This document shows positions 6,526-30,564 of a stretch of DNA of 37,613 nucleotides, in pieces. A program made the position numbers and the translations under genes. Source of the stretch: a bacterium BMS3Abin01 (GTDB lineage Bacteria > Actinomycetota > Thermoleophilia > BMS3ABIN01); the NCBI GenBank assembly GCA_002897715.1, contig BDUA01000037.1, positions 1-37,613 on the forward strand. The letters run 5' to 3'. Under the pieces are notes generated by a model. The model made no database searches and was not told the origin of the DNA. It saw nothing but the letters and a program-made list of their open reading frames with translations. Each line of letters starts with the position of its first letter. Within the stretch, counting starts at the first letter, position 1.

Positions 6526-6795
6526 TCAGCCGCGGCCCAGAGTGTCCCTTTTTTCTTCGAATTCGGCTTTATCGATCTCACCCTTCGCATATCTTTTATG
6601 GAGTATGTCCAGGGCCGTCTCGCTGGTATTTCCCGGGCCGGTAACGCTCCGGTTGCCGCCTGCCTGAATCTGCCGGAACAGCCAGACGATGAACAGGATA
6701 ACGGCGATCAGCACCGCCGCCCAGAAGACCATCATGATGATGCCGCCGGCGATACCGAAGCCGGTTTCAGAGTGTCCCCAGTCCCAGCCGTGCAT
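6526..6795 (-). CDS. SHOCT-domain membrane protein (89 aa)
   Basis: A short N-terminus with His and Trp (MHGWDWGH) leads to one strong membrane helix (IIMMVFWAAVLIAVILFIVWLF), a linker, and a C-terminal SHOCT motif (ALDILHKRYAKGEIDKAEFEEKRDTL). SHOCT domains are short oligomerisation or binding modules often found at the end of bacterial membrane proteins. A ribosome site AAAGGAG lies upstream. It is second in a two-gene unit with the paralog at 6821-7021 (25 bp gap) and probably shares its promoter. Confidence 0.88.
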   Translation of the reverse strand: MHGWDWGHSETGFGIAGGIIMMVFWAAVLIAVILFIVWLFRQIQAGGNRSVTGPGNTSETALDILHKRYAKGEIDKAEFEEKRDTLGRG

Positions 6796-6820: not shown

Positions 6821-7021
6821 TTATTCGCAGTAGCGCCGGCGCTCCTCGTATTCGTCCCTGTCTATCTCTCCACGGGCGTACCGCTTTTTCAGCACCTCCA
6901 GCGGAGTCTCCACCGGTATCGGGGTGCCAGGATTGAGAATGCTCCTGCCGGAACCGTTGCCGGCGTAGAACAGGAACAGGAAAACGGCTATGAACAAAAA
7001 CCCAATGAACGCGATTCCCAT
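6821..7021 (-). CDS. SHOCT-domain membrane protein (66 aa)
   Basis: The start is ATG 7021, preceded by AAAGGAG with good spacing; the longer track start at 7105 would run through the promoter elements. The protein has one membrane helix (GIAFIGFLFIAVFLFLFYAG), a Pro-rich linker and a SHOCT motif (PLEVLKKRYARGEIDRDEYEERRRYC) ending in CE. It is a paralog of its downstream neighbour. About 80 bp upstream lie four 11-nt-spaced ATNAAG repeats, so the pair is likely under an OmpR/PhoB-type activator. Confidence 0.88.
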   Translation of the reverse strand: MGIAFIGFLFIAVFLFLFYAGNGSGRSILNPGTPIPVETPLEVLKKRYARGEIDRDEYEERRRYCE

Positions 7022-7087: not shown

Positions 7088-7142
7088 AGTATGCCCACCA
7101 CGCATGAAAGAAACATAAAGCGTTGATTAAGAGTTGATTAAG
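7088..7142 (-). promoter_or_regulatory. 11-nt-phased ATNAAG array and -10 for the SHOCT genes
   Basis: Plus-strand hexamers ATGAAA (7104), ATAAAG (7115), ATTAAG (7126) and ATTAAG (7137) start exactly 11 nt apart. Read in the direction of transcription they are CTTNAT-type repeats. The -10-like CATACT (complement of 7088-7093) begins after a 10-nt spacer from the last repeat. Direct repeats of one helical turn, 10 nt from a -10, are typical of promoters activated by PhoB/OmpR-family regulators. No good -35 is present. Confidence 0.7.
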
Positions 7143-7148
7143 GAAAGA

Positions 7149-7173
7149 AGAGACGCCCCGGTGGGGCGTCTCT
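7149..7173 (-). terminator. Terminator of the Met/His-rich protein gene
   Basis: GAGACGCCCC and GGGGCGTCTC form a perfect 10-bp stem with a GGT/ACC loop, extended by one A-T pair. On the minus strand it is followed by TTCTTTCCTT. It lies just after the stop of the 7201-7644 gene and just before the SHOCT promoter array, so it insulates the two units. Confidence 0.85.
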
Positions 7174-7200
7174 CTGGCTCCTCTTCCATTTACCTGGTGG

Positions 7201-7644
7201 TTACCTTCCCATGTGTCCACCGGGGCCCGGGCCGTAACCCTGGCCGGTTTCCGGGGCACCGCTACCCATATGATCCTGATAGGTGCCGTCGCCCATGTGC
7301 TCGTTCATGGTCTGCTGCATATCTTCCCGGGTCTGATCACTCATATGGCCGGTTCCATCAGCGCCGTGGTGCTGCTCCATGGTGCCGTCCTGCATGTGCT
7401 GCTCCATGGTGCCGTCCTGCATGTGCTGCTCCATGTTCTGCCTGTGCTCTTGCGTCTGGTTTCCGCAGACTTCGCTGATATCCGTGACTCCTTCAGTGAT
7501 ACCGCTGCCGGTGGTTTCGCCGCCCCACATGGGCATGCCGCCGTAATCAGGGGTCGTCCCCTGGGTGGTCTGCGCCAGGACCACTGCGGCTCCGGCCAGC
7601 AGGACCACTACCGAAAGGATCGTTATAGCGATTGCTTTTGTCAT
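7201..7644 (-). CDS. Exported Met/His/Gln-rich repeat protein
   Basis: A 147-aa product with an N-terminal signal (AIAITILSVVVLLAGAAVVLAQ) and a mature region rich in Met, His, Gln, Asp and Gly. It contains MEQHMQDGT twice in tandem plus further MEQH, GHMSD and NEHMGDG variants, and one Cys (SEVCG). Met/His-rich exported proteins often bind copper or other soft metals, but no known family is evident. The start has GGAGG upstream. It has its own regulated promoter array (7678-7732) and terminator. Function inferred only from composition. Confidence 0.85.
   Translation of the reverse strand: MTKAIAITILSVVVLLAGAAVVLAQTTQGTTPDYGGMPMWGGETTGSGITEGVTDISEVCGNQTQEHRQNMEQHMQDGTMEQHMQDGTMEQHHGADGTGHMSDQTREDMQQTMNEHMGDGTYQDHMGSGAPETGQGYGPGPGGHMGR
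7369..7435. repeat. 27-bp tandem repeat inside the Met/His-rich gene
   Basis: The unit GTGCTGCTCCATGGTGCCGT (first 20 bases) recurs exactly at 7369-7395 and 7396-7422, with a 13-bp partial third copy. It encodes MEQHMQDGT on the minus strand. Perfect identity suggests recent slippage, so copy number may vary between strains. Confidence 0.93.
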
Positions 7645-7677
7645 TTCTGACCTCCATCTGGATTTGATCTCAATGCT

Positions 7678-7732
7678 ATTATCGCCGCCGGTGATGAAGG
7701 AGCAATTAAGCGTTTGTGAAGATTATATGAAG
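7678..7732 (-). promoter_or_regulatory. 11-nt-phased ATNAAG array and -10 for the Met/His-rich gene
   Basis: Plus-strand hexamers ATGAAG (7694), ATTAAG (7705), GTGAAG (7716) and ATGAAG (7727) start exactly 11 nt apart. The -10-like GATAAT (complement of 7678-7683) starts 10 nt from the last repeat, the same geometry as the array at 7088-7142. The predicted start site near 7671 gives a leader of about 27 nt. The array lies immediately after the stop of the 7735-8517 gene. Confidence 0.75.
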
Positions 7733-7734
7733 AT

Positions 7735-8517
7735 TTACTGGAGCAGAAGGCGCTGCCAGACGGGGAAATGGTCGCTGGCGGCGGTGTCCTTCCAGACCCG
7801 GTTGTCGATACCGGCCATACCGCGGACGAAGATATGGTCGAAGGTGAAACTCATGAATCCCGCCTTGAGGGTAGGACCGGCCCCGGCCGAAACCCGTCTG
7901 AGTCCCACCTGGCGGAACCGTTCCTCCAGCTTCTTGATGTTCTTGGCCTTGATGGTATTGAAGTCGCCGCCAACCAGCACGTATCCCTGGTCTTCGCCGG
8001 CGATATCGTCCACCAGCGAACGGAACTGCTCGTAGCGTTTGCGGGCGCTCAGGGCGAAGGTCTCGGTGTGGACACTGTAGGCGACCACATCCCGTCCATC
8101 GACCGCCACGTGGGCCCGGGCAGCGATGCGGCGCTCGCCGGTGCGGGGACTTTCGTGCGGCAACAGCAGCTTGGCGCTGCCGGAGATCTCCCACCGCGCC
8201 AGCACGGCGTTTCCGAATTTTTTACCGGTGCGGCAATGCACCGAAGCGGGGAAGTACACATAGTTGAGTCCGAGGGAGCGGGCGATGGCATCCACACCTT
8301 CGTCGTCCATCTCCTGCAGCAGCATGATATCGGCGTTGCGCAGCTGGTCTGTCTCATTCAGTTCGGCGATGGCGGTGTCGATTTCGCGCGCGAACTTGAT
8401 GTTCCAGCTCACCACGCTGAGCTCGCCGGAGAACCTGGCTGAGCCGCCGGCGTAGCTCCCCTCATAGCGGGGCCCGTCCGGTTTACAGAAGTTCTCGGTG
8501 TCGCCGGTGGCGGCCAT
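7735..8517 (-). CDS. Endonuclease/exonuclease/phosphatase-family enzyme
   Basis: The 260-aa protein has the EEP fold motifs in order: LSVVSWNIKFAR (Asn metal ligand), LLQEMDDEG (catalytic Glu), SVHTE (His), GGDFNT (Asp/Asn) and ASDHFPV (Asp-His at the C-terminus). EEP enzymes cleave phosphodiesters in nucleic acids or lipid head groups; the substrate cannot be read here. No signal peptide, so probably cytoplasmic. The start ATG overlaps the stop of the upstream phosphodiesterase gene (TGATG), implying translational coupling and a shared pathway. It is the last gene of the two-component operon. Confidence 0.88.
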   Translation of the reverse strand: MAATGDTENFCKPDGPRYEGSYAGGSARFSGELSVVSWNIKFAREIDTAIAELNETDQLRNADIMLLQEMDDEGVDAIARSLGLNYVYFPASVHCRTGKKFGNAVLARWEISGSAKLLLPHESPRTGERRIAARAHVAVDGRDVVAYSVHTETFALSARKRYEQFRSLVDDIAGEDQGYVLVGGDFNTIKAKNIKKLEERFRQVGLRRVSAGAGPTLKAGFMSFTFDHIFVRGMAGIDNRVWKDTAASDHFPVWQRLLLQ

Positions 8518-10595
8518 CAGTCCTTGTCATCATTCCCGTTGTTTTTCTTTACCGCATCCAGCCATCCTCGCATGACCTGGTTCAGGTGCTCAGCGCCGAC
8601 GATCTCCTCCTCCGGCAACTCCCACGCGGCCGGGAACAGCACGAAGGGGTGGGCCTGGTCGCCACCCAGACCGCCGTGGCTTCCCACCAGCTCCTCAAAG
8701 GCGGCCACTTCGTCGGTGACCGGGTCGTAGAAGCTGTTGACCATGATGTCCGCCACATGGGGAAAACCATCGGTGCGCTTCAAGTGGGCTGCTGCGTTGG
8801 CGCCGAAGTACGCCAGTGGGTTCTTCCCCTGGAAACGGTCCTCCTCCAGGAAGTATACGCCATTGGCGCCGATGGCCAGCGGGCCCTTCTCCGCGGAACG
8901 GACCATCACGAAACCGATGCCGGGATGGTTCGCCAACCCCTGCAGAAGGCCGGGAAAAGCCCCGTCTATCTGTTCCAGGGTCATGCGTTCCTTCCAGTCG
9001 GTGAAATAAATCAGCCCCAGGTTACCGGAGGCCATCACGATCGCCTCTTCCTTCTCGCCGGCGATCTTCTTCTTGTCCTCCAGGGCATCGCGCTCCGGAC
9101 CCAGCATCACCTCGCCCTCGCTGGTCTTTTTCTTGACGGCCAGCCGGAGCGCCTTGGCGGAAAGCTGATGCTGGTCCCCCTGGATCGCGTCCGTTAGCGG
9201 CGCGCTCAGGTAGCTCCAGTGTTCGGCGACGGCCCCGGTGGTTCCCACCTTGACCTTGCCGGCCACCAGCTGTTCCACGTATTCCTCCAGGGTGATGTCA
9301 TAGCGTTGTTTGAAGGTCGCCCCCTGGCTCTGGCCGTGGTCGGAAAGGATGACGAAATCATAGGGACGGGGAGCCTGCCGGGAGGCGGCCTCCAGCCGTT
9401 CGAACTGTTGGTCCAGCTTGCGCAGGACCTCCAGCGTGTCCTCGCGCTCGACTCCCGAATGATGAGCCACCTCGTCATATCCGAACAGGGTGACATAAGC
9501 TGACGGGATGCCGGCGAACATGTCGCCTATGAGCGTATAGATACTCAACTCCCTGATGATGGTGGTGGTGGCCGCCCGGATAAAGGCGAACTTGAGACCC
9601 CGGTGTTCCAGCCGTGGCTGCACGTCACGCTGGCGCTGCCGTCGCTTGCTCCTGAGTTCCAGGAAGATGTCCCAGAGGGCCAGCATGAAGGCCCGAAGGA
9701 AGTTATAGGGATCGATAAAGAACATGTAGAAGCTTCTCTTGTGAAAATCAGACGCCTTCGGGTTCTTGACCGTGCTCATGGTGAACACAGTGATGGGGGC
9801 CTCTCCGGAGAACATGTTGCTGAGACTGAGGCCGCCGTCTGCCAACAGCCCCTTGCCGCTGGACTGCCGCTTCTCGATCTCGGAGATATCGCTCATCTGG
9901 CTGGATACCATCAACCGGCCCGTGTCCTTCTCGTACCAGCGGAAGGCGGGGATATCGTAGTTGTTCCCCAGCAGGATGCCGGCCTGGCTGGCCCCGGTCT
10001 GGGACGAGAGGTCACACTCCCAGCCGGCGAGGCGGTGGCTCCCCTCTACCAGCCAGCGGGCCATGATGGGGGCGTGGCCGTTACGGATGGCCCGGAGCAG
10101 CACCGGTTTGGCCAGTCCGTCTATCTCCAGGAATATCACTCCCGGCACATCGGACTCGACCGGCTTTAACTGCTTGGTGACCTTTCTTTTCAGCACATTG
10201 CGGTAGTAGGACTCGTCGTCATCTACGGAGAACAGGCTGGTAAGCAGGGTGTTGACCGCGGCTAAGCCGATGGCGATAAACAGCGGGTCCCATACATTGA
10301 TGATATCGATACCCGGGACGATCACCGAAGCCAGCCAGATTATGAAACCGTTGAGCACCAGCGTGAACAGGCCCAGGGACAGGATGCTCAGGGGCAGGGT
10401 CAGATAGACCAGTGTCGGCCATAGCAGGGCGTTGAGGATGCCGATGCCAGCGGCGAGGGCAATCACCGACCAGATTCCGTCGATCCTGAAACCGGGAAGC
10501 ATGCCGGACAGCAGGTATAGGCCCAGCGTGGTGATAACCCAGATGGCTACCAGGCGTTTGATTTTAACCCTGAACTTTCGTCTCGACCCACTCAT
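8517..10595 (-). CDS. Holin-like membrane domain fused to an alkaline-phosphatase-superfamily phosphodiesterase
   Basis: The N-terminal 125 residues contain four hydrophobic helices of the mycobacterial 4TM 'phage holin IV' type (PF04020-like); this is a membrane anchor, not evidence of a prophage. From about residue 150 comes a nucleotide pyrophosphatase/phosphodiesterase domain: FLEIDG (metal Asp, about D159), SSQTGASQAGIL (likely Thr nucleophile), FGYDEVAHHSG, LSDHGQ and SHGGLGGDQAHPF supply the remaining metal ligands. Likely a membrane-bound hydrolase of a phosphoester, possibly a lipid or envelope polymer. 692 aa. It follows the histidine kinase gene by about 70 bp and is coupled to the EEP gene. 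Confidence 0.88.
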   Translation of the reverse strand: MSGSRRKFRVKIKRLVAIWVITTLGLYLLSGMLPGFRIDGIWSVIALAAGIGILNALLWPTLVYLTLPLSILSLGLFTLVLNGFIIWLASVIVPGIDIINVWDPLFIAIGLAAVNTLLTSLFSVDDDESYYRNVLKRKVTKQLKPVESDVPGVIFLEIDGLAKPVLLRAIRNGHAPIMARWLVEGSHRLAGWECDLSSQTGASQAGILLGNNYDIPAFRWYEKDTGRLMVSSQMSDISEIEKRQSSGKGLLADGGLSLSNMFSGEAPITVFTMSTVKNPKASDFHKRSFYMFFIDPYNFLRAFMLALWDIFLELRSKRRQRQRDVQPRLEHRGLKFAFIRAATTTIIRELSIYTLIGDMFAGIPSAYVTLFGYDEVAHHSGVEREDTLEVLRKLDQQFERLEAASRQAPRPYDFVILSDHGQSQGATFKQRYDITLEEYVEQLVAGKVKVGTTGAVAEHWSYLSAPLTDAIQGDQHQLSAKALRLAVKKKTSEGEVMLGPERDALEDKKKIAGEKEEAIVMASGNLGLIYFTDWKERMTLEQIDGAFPGLLQGLANHPGIGFVMVRSAEKGPLAIGANGVYFLEEDRFQGKNPLAYFGANAAAHLKRTDGFPHVADIMVNSFYDPVTDEVAAFEELVGSHGGLGGDQAHPFVLFPAAWELPEEEIVGAEHLNQVMRGWLDAVKKNNGNDDKD

Positions 10596-10666: not shown

Positions 10667-11773
10667 TCAGGAGGCGGGAAAGGATAGGGTAATCCGGGTG
10701 CCGGTGCCGGGAGTGCTGGCGGCGCTGATACCGCCGCCCATGGCTTCCACATAGCTCCTGGCGATGGTGAGGCCGATGCCGCTGCCGCCGCTGTCGCGGG
10801 AACGCGACTTGTCGGCCCGGTAGAAGCGGTCGAATATGTGGGGCAGGTCGGCGGCGGGGATGCCGCCGCCGCTGTCGGCGACGACCAGGAACACGCGGCC
10901 CTCATACCGGTCCGCGGACAGGGTTACGCCGCCGCCGCCGTCCGTATGCCGCAGGGCGTTGTCCAGCAGGTTTATCATTACCTGGTCCAGCTTGTCCTCG
11001 TCGGCGGTGACGGTGACCCCCTCGTTCTCTCCGTCGATGGTGAGGGAGACCCCCTTGGCGACGAATCGCGGCTCCATCTTCCGGCGCACCCTCTCCAGGA
11101 AACCCGCCAGGGGGATGGAGACCGGGTTCAGTTGCTCTTCTCCCGATTCCGCCCGGGAGAGCTGCTGCAGGTCATCCACCAGGCGGTTGAGGCGGCCTGC
11201 CTCCTGCCTGACCAGATCATAGGTCTCCTTCTCGGCGGGTACCACACCGTCGGCCAGGCCCTCCATGTAGCCGGATATGCTGGACAGGGGGGTGCGCAGC
11301 TCGTGGGCGATATTGGCCATCAGGTCGCGTCGCTGCTGCTCCGATTGCTCCAGGCTCTCGGCCATGCGGTTGAGGCTCTGCGCCAGGTTTCCCAGCTCAT
11401 CGCTGGAGCCCTCCTTCACCCTTCGGCTGAAATCGCCGGCAGCTATCTGCCGGGTGGCCGCCGCCATCTCGTGAACCGGACGGGTTATACGACGGGATAT
11501 AAAAAAGCTTACTACCACCGCCGCCGCCACCGCCGCCAGTCCTCCCCACAGCAGGGCGTAATTGAGCGCTTGGCGGAAAGCCCGGTCCAGGTCGGTGCTC
11601 ATGGAGGACATCATGCCGCCCATGCCGCCGCCGGTCATGTTGCGCAGGTGCTCACTGTAGGAGCTCAGGGTCAGCTGGCGGGTGATAATTATGATGACGC
11701 CGATGCCTACCGCTATTACCAGCAGGAAAGTCGCCAGCAGTTTCCATCTGAGTTGCAGCCCCTGCTTGATCAC
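10667..11773 (-). CDS. Sensor histidine kinase with Met-rich extracytoplasmic loop
   Basis: A 368-aa two-helix sensor kinase. TM1 is LLATFLLVIAVGIGVIIII and TM2 is ALLWGGLAAVAAAVVVSFFI. The loop between them is short and holds five Met in 13 residues (M46-M58, NMTGGGMGGMMSSMS), unusual for a general sensor and suggestive of soft-metal or redox sensing. Then HAMP, HisKA (IAHELRTPLSS, phospho-His about H157) and HATPase_c with N-box (NLLDNALRHT), DSGGGIP and GGSGIGLTI. The GTG start overlaps the regulator's stop (GTGA), so the pair is coupled. Confidence 0.93.
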   Translation of the reverse strand: MIKQGLQLRWKLLATFLLVIAVGIGVIIIITRQLTLSSYSEHLRNMTGGGMGGMMSSMSTDLDRAFRQALNYALLWGGLAAVAAAVVVSFFISRRITRPVHEMAAATRQIAAGDFSRRVKEGSSDELGNLAQSLNRMAESLEQSEQQRRDLMANIAHELRTPLSSISGYMEGLADGVVPAEKETYDLVRQEAGRLNRLVDDLQQLSRAESGEEQLNPVSIPLAGFLERVRRKMEPRFVAKGVSLTIDGENEGVTVTADEDKLDQVMINLLDNALRHTDGGGGVTLSADRYEGRVFLVVADSGGGIPAADLPHIFDRFYRADKSRSRDSGGSGIGLTIARSYVEAMGGGISAASTPGTGTRITLSFPAS

Positions 11774-12498
11774 CGCCCGGCCTCCAGCTTGTAGCCGACG
11801 CCCCTGACGGTCCTGAGGTACCGGGGCTCGGAAGCGTCCGGCTCCAGCTTCTTCCTCAGCTTGGCCATGTGCACGTCCACTACCCGCGGGTCACCATAAT
11901 AGGTGTAGCCCCATATGCTCTCCAGCAGCTGCTCCCGGCTGAGGACGATGCCGGCGTTGGCGGCCAGCGCTGCCAGGATATCGAATTCGCGGGCGGTCAG
12001 GTCCAGCTCGCGGTCGCCTATCTTCGCCAGGTGGCGTTCGGTGTCCACCAGGACGGGGCCGGCCCGGAATACTCCGGTAGCAGCACCGGCGGCCCCGGTC
12101 CTGCCGCCCCGCCGCAGGATGGCTTTGACCCTGGCCACCAGTTCCCGCGGGCTGAACGGCTTGGTCAGGTAGTCGTCGGCGCCCATGCCCAGACCCACCA
12201 GCTTGTCCGCCTCATCGGCTCTGGCGGTCAGCATCAGGACCATGGGGCCGTCTTCGCCGCAGACGGTGCGGCAGACTTCAAGCCCGTCCATCTCCGGCAG
12301 CATCAGGTCCAGCACTACCAGGTCCGGCCGTTCGCTGCGGACCATCTCGATGGCGCGCACGCCATCAGCGGCCTCGCTCACCTGGAAGCCATCCTTTTCC
12401 AGGTAGGAGCGCACCAGCTTTCTCACGTTGGCCTCGTCGTCGACTACGAGTATTCTGGTCTTTGTCGTTCCGCCGGCCCGGACGGACCCCATCCTCAC
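11770..12498 (-). CDS. OmpR/PhoB-family response regulator
   Basis: The receiver domain has ILVVDDE (acidic pocket), VVLDLMLPEMDG (phospho-Asp) and LTKPF-type YLTKPFSPREL (conserved Lys). The C-terminal winged helix (LTAREFDILAALAANAG ... VDVHMAKLRKKL ... YLRTVRGVGYKL) is the OmpR/PhoB DNA-binding domain, which typically binds tandem direct repeats one helical turn apart. 242 aa from GTG 12498; ATG 12492 is an equally plausible start, and no clear ribosome site decides. First of the pair with the kinase. It is the best local candidate to bind the 11-nt-phased arrays at 7.1 and 7.7 kb. Confidence 0.93.
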   Translation of the reverse strand: MRMGSVRAGGTTKTRILVVDDEANVRKLVRSYLEKDGFQVSEAADGVRAIEMVRSERPDLVVLDLMLPEMDGLEVCRTVCGEDGPMVLMLTARADEADKLVGLGMGADDYLTKPFSPRELVARVKAILRRGGRTGAAGAATGVFRAGPVLVDTERHLAKIGDRELDLTAREFDILAALAANAGIVLSREQLLESIWGYTYYGDPRVVDVHMAKLRKKLEPDASEPRYLRTVRGVGYKLEAGR

Positions 12499-29706: not shown

Positions 29707-30564
29707 ATGCAGAAAATCTACAGCGACATGGATTTACTCGACGCACTGAGGAGGGAGAGTGATGATGGTCTGATGGGACCCACCTATCACGGCTATCTCA
29801 AAGGGCCGAACCGTCCCAGCGCCGAGGCGATCAGGGCCCGATTCGGAGGTTGGACCAACGCTGTACGTAAGGCCGGCATGATTCCGGCGGCGCGCCGCAC
29901 CAATAAGGAAATGAGGAAGCTGGTCAAGATGGGCAAGGTGGATGCCAAGTACCCGGCCCTGAGAATGGGCATGAGCGTCCGCGAGCTTAAGGTATCGGTG
30001 GGGCTTGAGAAGCCACGCAAGCCGACCAAGGAGCGTTACATCGATGAAGGTGTGCGCATCGCCAGGAAATTGGGCAGAGCTCCCAATTTTCACGAGTTCA
30101 ACCGTTACACCAAGACGGTCACGGCGTGGAATCCATATCGCCTCTATGGCCGTGACTGGAAAGCATTCAAGCGGGATGTCGAAAAGCGTTTGAAGGAGAA
30201 GACCAAGGCCATACCCAAGGCCAAGGCCAAGACCAAAGCGAAGCCCAAGAGCAACGCCAAGGCAAAACCCAAGGCTAAGGCAAAGCCCAAGGCTAAGTCT
30301 AAGACTCAAGCAAAACCGAAGACCAAACCCAAGGCCAAAGCAAAAGCCAAGCCCAAGGCAAAGCCCAAGGCAAAGGCAAAAGCAAAGCCCAAGCCCAAGC
30401 CCAAGGCCAAGGCAAAAGCAAAAGCAAAAGCCAAGCCGAAGCCCAAGACTAAGACCAAAACTAAGCCGAAGGCTAAAGCCAAACCGAAGGCTAAAGCCAA
30501 ACCGAAGCCGAAGCCCAAGGCTAAAGCCAAGACCAAGGCCAAGACCAAGGCCAAGAAGAAATAA
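29707..30564 (+). CDS. Histone H1-like protein with homing-endonuclease-associated repeats
   Basis: The N-terminal half has two helical DNA-binding repeats of the homing-endonuclease-associated type: PSAEAIRARFGGWTNAVRKAGM (about residues 37-58) and a second segment, ARKLGRAPNFHEFNRYTK ... YGRDWKAFKRDV. From about residue 160 to the end it is a Lys/Ala/Pro-rich tail (repeated KAKPKAK, no acidic residues after the first few) like histone H1 or the tail of actinobacterial HupB. No nuclease domain. The protein is 285 aa and very basic. I infer a nucleoid-associated protein. AAAAAGGAG is the ribosome site. A strong terminator follows. Confidence 0.85.
   Translation: MQKIYSDMDLLDALRRESDDGLMGPTYHGYLKGPNRPSAEAIRARFGGWTNAVRKAGMIPAARRTNKEMRKLVKMGKVDAKYPALRMGMSVRELKVSVGLEKPRKPTKERYIDEGVRIARKLGRAPNFHEFNRYTKTVTAWNPYRLYGRDWKAFKRDVEKRLKEKTKAIPKAKAKTKAKPKSNAKAKPKAKAKPKAKSKTQAKPKTKPKAKAKAKPKAKPKAKAKAKPKPKPKAKAKAKAKAKPKPKTKTKTKPKAKAKPKAKAKPKPKPKAKAKTKAKTKAKKK
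30208..30561. repeat. Low-complexity AAGGCCAAG/AAGCCCAAG tract
   Basis: About 350 bp of purine-rich codon repeats (AAG GCC AAG, AAG CCC AAG, AAA GCC) encode the KAKPK tail. Such tracts are prone to slippage, so tail length may differ among strains. The antisense ORF is a Leu/Gly-rich shadow. Confidence 0.9.

Follow-up and report, generated by a model that had tools for sequence, protein, structure and literature searches.

Phased four-hexamer arrays as candidate operators of an OmpR-type two-component system in Thermoleophilia and Chloroflexota

Introduction

The draft genome of BMS3Abin01, an uncultured member of the Thermoleophilia in the phylum Actinomycetota (1.5 Mb, 86% complete), contains two arrays of short direct repeats that raise the question of which protein reads them and in response to what signal. 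Both lie in the window analysed here, the stretch of 37,613 nt that comprises positions 1–37,613 of contig BDUA01000037.1. A sequence-only reading had described the arrays as ATNAAG hexamers at steps of 11 nt with a -10-like box 10 nt beyond the last repeat, and had proposed a local regulon in which one OmpR-type regulator co-activates small envelope genes.

Direct repeat units of 11 nt are known from PHO boxes, which are bound head-to-tail and support activation via a contact with sigma (PMC4415409). PhoB/PhoP promoters share this unit length with the arrays in the window, but differ in the hexamer, the targets and the kinase. A closer geometry is found at the copper-responsive promoters of Synechocystis, as described below.

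Results

Two arrays with the same phase precede two kinds of putative target genes

The hexamers start at 7104, 7115, 7126 and 7137 (array B) and at 7694, 7705, 7716 and 7727 (array A), with a step of 11 nt throughout, as originally claimed. Six of the eight match ATNAAG exactly, the deviants being ATGAAA at 7104 and GTGAAG at 7716. The genes concerned all lie on the minus strand; in their direction, each array reads as CTTMAY-N5 repeated four times, followed by 10 nt and a -10-like box. This box is present at the proposed distance in both arrays, and the assignment of array A to the gene of a Met/His-rich exported protein and of array B to a pair of SHOCT genes also stands.

7694..7732, minus strand: array A, four putative operator half-sites in 11-nt phase, CTTCAT-N5-CTTCAC-N5-CTTAAT-N5-CTTCAT
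7678..7683, minus strand: -10-like box GATAAT of array A, 10 nt past the last hexamer
7201..7644, minus strand: small exported Met/His-rich protein, first gene of array A, 147 aa, without a Pfam or NCBIfam match
7149..7173, minus strand: probable intrinsic terminator between the two transcription units, AGAGACGCCCC-ACC-GGGGCGTCTCT followed by TCTTT, read by eye
7104..7142, minus strand: array B, CTTAAT-N5-CTTAAT-N5-CTTTAT-N5-TTTCAT
7088..7093, minus strand: -10-like box CATACT of array B, 10 nt past the last hexamer
6821..7021, minus strand: SHOCT small membrane protein 1, 66 aa from the ATG at 7021 (Pfam PF09851)
6526..6795, minus strand: SHOCT small membrane protein 2, 89 aa (Pfam PF09851)

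The window contains four overlapping matches to three in-phase hexamers with up to two mismatches, where 0.01 are expected from shuffled sequences. The full pattern (four hexamers, 10 nt and NANNNT, with at most one mismatch) occurs at exactly two sites in the host draft genome, which are arrays A and B, and its reversed version at none.

The exported protein contains 13 Met and 9 His in about 122 mature residues (18% Met+His). The start of the first SHOCT gene in the list of open reading frames, 7105, falls inside array B; the ATG at 7021, which has a good ribosome-binding site, is the most likely start. The same two kinds of genes, exported Met-rich proteins and clusters of small SHOCT membrane proteins, are headed by arrays across the family. 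In eight family genomes, 8 of 11 SHOCT clusters have an array upstream, and in some genomes the cluster is followed by a Met-rich two-domain protein. The predicted structure of the latter has moderate confidence (pLDDT 70.7) and its matches in the PDB are weak, the first being the C-terminal domain of YpeB, which hints at a PepSY-like fold.

The pattern is conserved throughout the family

The full pattern, for which a genome search had been suggested by the sequence-only reading, was found in 19/19 family genomes and in 1 of 100 other genomes of the class, while the reversed pattern was found in none of the 119. In the sister genome (G001), repeats 2 and 3 of array B are one base closer together, and the repeat is therefore weak there. 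In two genomes, G002 and G006, the two kinds of targets are located on separate contigs, which indicates a regulon rather than a single locus. The proposed local character thus applies to the host genome and its sister, but the targets are unlinked in other genomes, and the arrays extend to a second phylum.

Additional repeats can be observed in the class. Several family genomes contain a second type, ATTAAC/CTTAAC (GTTAAG on the other strand), at 11 nt and beside a conserved promoter-like stretch, GGTCAACAGCCAATTAGGATA on one strand (L012:1501-1528, L013:1501-1528, L054:4870-4897, L160:1501-1539 and L010:662-689). The arrays at L012, L013, L054 and L160 were set apart, as their geometry and promoter context differ; the geometry suggests a repressor or another regulator. 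In another family of Thermoleophilia, degenerate arrays (L224:4443-4481, L222:8749-8787 and L223:3589-3627) are located near kinases of 43–47% identity, before Met-rich exported proteins, and are possibly diverged versions.

The arrays end 10 nt before a -10 and lack a -35

The -10 box was not part of the earlier searches by which the arrays were found. Of 30 offsets tested for NANNNT, offset 10 nevertheless stands out by a wide margin, with 25 of 26 arrays in Thermoleophilia and 31 of 35 in the Chloroflexota set. When 20 family arrays are aligned without gaps, the hexamers agree and the -10 falls at the same place. As the array set was partly found with the motif itself, the conservation of the hexamers stems in part from selection; the -10 placement is not affected by this. 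No -35 element was detected, the mean best match to TTGACA being 1.6 of 6 positions versus 2.4 for shuffles.

The arrays thus combine in-phase direct repeats of about 11 nt with an end point close to the -10 and no -35, which are the features of class II operator-promoters. The layout corresponds to class II promoters of the PhoB or CopR type, which OmpR-type regulators activate by a mechanism of known kind. We conclude that the arrays are very probably operators for an OmpR-type activator.

A neighbouring OmpR-type regulator, encoded with a kinase, is the probable reader

A two-component pair is encoded upstream of array A on the same strand:

11770..12498, minus strand: OmpR/PhoB-type response regulator (PF00072 and PF00486), the inferred reader of the arrays
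10667..11773, minus strand: sensor histidine kinase (PF00672, PF00512, PF02518) with a very short periplasmic loop that carries the conserved Met motif GGMGGMMSSM, as seen in the alignment

The loop of the kinase comprises about 40 residues, and the Met motif is kept across the aligned kinases. In ten family genomes (G002, G004, G006, G008, G009, G010, G013, G014, G015 and G017), all with a regulator–kinase pair orthologous to that at 10667-12498, an array is located directly 3' of the kinase gene and before a small exported Met-rich protein. In the window and in G001, two genes lie between kinase and array. Between them in the window, positions 8517-10595 encode a holin-IV-like four-helix membrane domain (PF04020) fused to a phosphodiesterase/nucleotide pyrophosphatase domain (PF01663). 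Elsewhere in the window, positions 29707-30564 encode a protein with a long, repetitive K/A/P-rich tail that resembles a histone tail.

The host genome contains three OmpR-type DNA-binding domains in all. In a tree of 99 regulators, the array-linked family regulators form one clade (100/99), with some long branches, that is separate from the two host paralogues and from RegX3, MtrA, PhoB, BaeR, CusR and CopR. The nearest solved structure to the window regulator is RegX3, and the best curated model of the kinase is BaeS, which it matches far below the cut-off. One of the paralogues, on contig C33, adjoins a weak TTAC-like array (L231:3977-4015) before a Met/Gly-rich exported protein, perhaps a paralogous system.

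No array that would point to autoregulation was found upstream of the window's own regulator gene; in the Chloroflexota loci L093, L099, L115 and L130 the repeats are located directly before the regulator gene. In G003, G011, G016 and G018, the last three of which are draft genomes, arrays are present and a close orthologue of regulator or kinase was not found. The G003 regulator gene (L235 near 10020) breaks off after about 105 residues and continues in frame into an unrelated sequence that resembles a membrane protein, which reflects either a deletion or an assembly misjoin. Another regulator could read the sites in these four genomes.

Conservation of the pattern in the family, synteny in ten genomes and the small number of OmpR domains together support the claim that a single regulator, encoded at 11770-12498, co-activates both targets; its description as a regulator of generic envelope genes gives way to a likely copper/silver theme. 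We strongly infer a link between this regulator and the sites, and very probably it is the protein that reads them.

The system extends to Chloroflexota

Genome contigs were also searched with the kinase alignment alone, without use of the motif. Matches beyond the family were mostly from Chloroflexota, with 49% identity at best. Four-unit arrays at step 11 were present in 29 of 74 kinase-homologue loci; steps of 7–10 and 12–19 gave 0 or 1, and the reversed pattern 0. In whole-genome searches, 15 of 21 genomes contained 1 to 6 arrays each, with 0 in the control.

Among the Chloroflexota genes headed by arrays are those for SHOCT pairs, PCYCGC proteins and Met-rich proteins, the last with the regulator and kinase genes after them. 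Homologues of the Met-rich two-domain protein occur behind arrays in both phyla (37% identity, E 1e-39). Six arrays are present in G061 (Anaerolineales), one of them before a multicopper oxidase with a Met-rich insert. The others precede PCYCGC proteins, a SHOCT protein, the operon of a NarL-type regulator and 4Fe-4S membrane proteins, which accompany a cupredoxin/COX2-like protein in one case and a YtkA-like protein in another. In G062, an array is followed by a SHOCT pair and a multicopper-oxidase-like gene, and in G080 a CopA-type P-ATPase with YHS and HMA domains is located behind an array. Arrays before NarL-type regulator genes, at L181, L205 and L209 in two Chloroflexota genomes, suggest a cascade.

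Similarities to known copper systems point to a likely signal

The site assigned to CopR, the copper regulator of Synechocystis, is TTCAT-N4-5-TTCAT (PMC4182526), and sites of this kind are also present in the arrays. On pSYSX, the regions upstream of copM and of the copB operon contain TTTCAT-N5-TTTCAT, with a -10-like hexamer 10 nt further on; this is the geometry of the window arrays. CopM, a Met/His-rich periplasmic Cu-binding protein, adjoins two-component genes (PMC4335983), and a Met/His-rich exported protein is likewise located near such genes in the window. In E. coli, the copper-sensing CusRS system is also of the OmpR type, like the proteobacterial CopRS/PcoRS systems; a Met triad in the periplasmic loop of CusS contributes to copper sensing, and the triad together with a His stretch is needed for copper resistance (PMC10100754). 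The sensor loops of CusS and of the window kinase thus both contain Met.

Several differences separate the window system from all of these. The sites of Synechocystis CopR consist of two repeats, while the window arrays have four. CopR is an RppA equivalog, is located on another branch of the tree and is 31% identical to the window regulator; CopM has a DUF305, while the window exported protein lacks any Pfam domain; the sensor domain of CopS is long, while the loop of the window kinase is very short. The RppA model (NF041734, cut-off 250), against which Synechocystis CopR scores 384, is absent from the 25 best models of the window regulator, which limits its score to about 151 bits at most. 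The heavy-metal regulator and kinase models were also missed (TIGR01387, 164.5 vs 279.2; TIGR01386, 197.7 vs 292.55), and CusR is on another branch than the window regulator. Proteobacterial CopR and PcoR bind an inverted repeat (PMC7380067), in contrast to the direct repeats of the arrays. On the basis of curated models, identity and tree, membership of the window regulator in the CopR/RppA or Cus groups was rejected.

The Met motif in the kinase loop and the CopR-like geometry at copM/copB led us to put copper/silver first. In the window's own family, the genes examined behind arrays include Met-rich proteins and no proven copper enzyme; there the argument comes from Met-rich composition and homology, while in Chloroflexota it comes from copper proteins behind arrays (multicopper oxidase, P-type ATPase and cupredoxin). 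With moderate strength we infer the metal, and the balance leans towards Cu(I)/Ag(I) as the signal. The papers searched on SHOCT and copper yielded a single mention, which concerns the induction of a SHOCT protein by silver in Haloferax (PMC10694973).

Discussion

Motif, spacing, -10 placement, -35 absence, conservation, synteny and regulon content of the arrays were computed. In the proposed mechanism, the partner kinase would sense a periplasmic signal through its Met-rich loop, most likely excess Cu(I)/Ag(I) or a stress closely akin to it. The phosphorylated regulator would then bind head-to-tail on one face of the DNA, as two dimers on the four half-sites phased at 11 nt. With 10 nt between the last half-site and the -10, it would replace the missing -35 and recruit RNA polymerase by class II activation. 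Array A would switch on the Met/His-rich exported protein and array B the SHOCT membrane pair, and the Met-rich proteins would buffer the metal. We assign a probability of roughly 70% to this explanation as a whole, that is, to the arrays as class II sites of the regulator at 11770-12498 under a probable Cu/Ag signal sensed by the kinase.

Chance AT-rich repeats or an ordinary promoter can practically be dismissed: while single hexamers are common, the shuffle, reversed-pattern and step controls are at or near zero, and a chance origin was rejected on these grounds. It is also very improbable that the arrays are PHO boxes read by a phosphate-starvation regulator of the PhoB/PhoP/RegX3 type. 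Although the 11-nt direct repeat units and the structural proximity of the regulator to RegX3 fit this reading, the PhoB model gives 210.3 bits against a cut-off of 296.2, genes for pst, phoU or phosphatases are absent behind all arrays examined, and the syntenic kinase has a Met-rich loop. The identification as PHO boxes was rejected on model scores and target genes.

The reader could instead be one of the two other OmpR-type regulators of the host (on C33 or C15), with the neighbouring pair a coincidence. The four genomes that keep arrays without a detected orthologue of the pair, and the weak repeats near the C33 regulator, are in line with this; adjacency in ten genomes and the independent recovery of Chloroflexota arrays by the kinase-only search make it improbable. 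A weightier alternative, though still unlikely, retains the regulator and the class II mechanism and changes the signal to another metal, to redox stress or to a general envelope stress as in BaeSR/CpxAR systems. The BaeS model as best match of the kinase, even far below its cut-off, and Chloroflexota neighbours such as DoxX, CcdA/TlpA-like proteins, NarL-type regulators and an ABC permease point in that direction. The copper/silver signal is favoured by the Met motif of the kinase loop and by the recurrence of Met-rich proteins, cupredoxin, multicopper oxidase and Cu-type ATPase in association with arrays.

The wider proposal is tentative, at odds slightly short of even: a copper/silver-stress regulon common to Thermoleophilia and Chloroflexota, with four-repeat operators and a two-component system outside Cus, Cop and RppA, whose core would consist of Met-rich exported proteins, Met-rich two-domain membrane-anchored proteins and tandem SHOCT proteins. 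In the literature searched, we found no description of the regulon, of its operator code or of its occurrence in two phyla.

Starting from two short repeats, the analysis arrives at an operator code with which genomes can be searched and the regulon of an undescribed two-component system predicted, in two phyla whose members are mostly uncultured. It suggests that TTCAT direct repeats serve copper-type systems beyond Synechocystis CopR, with readers from more than one branch of the regulators. It also provides a testable role for a Met-rich family without a Pfam entry and for the small SHOCT membrane proteins, for which it would, if true, be the first defined physiological role.
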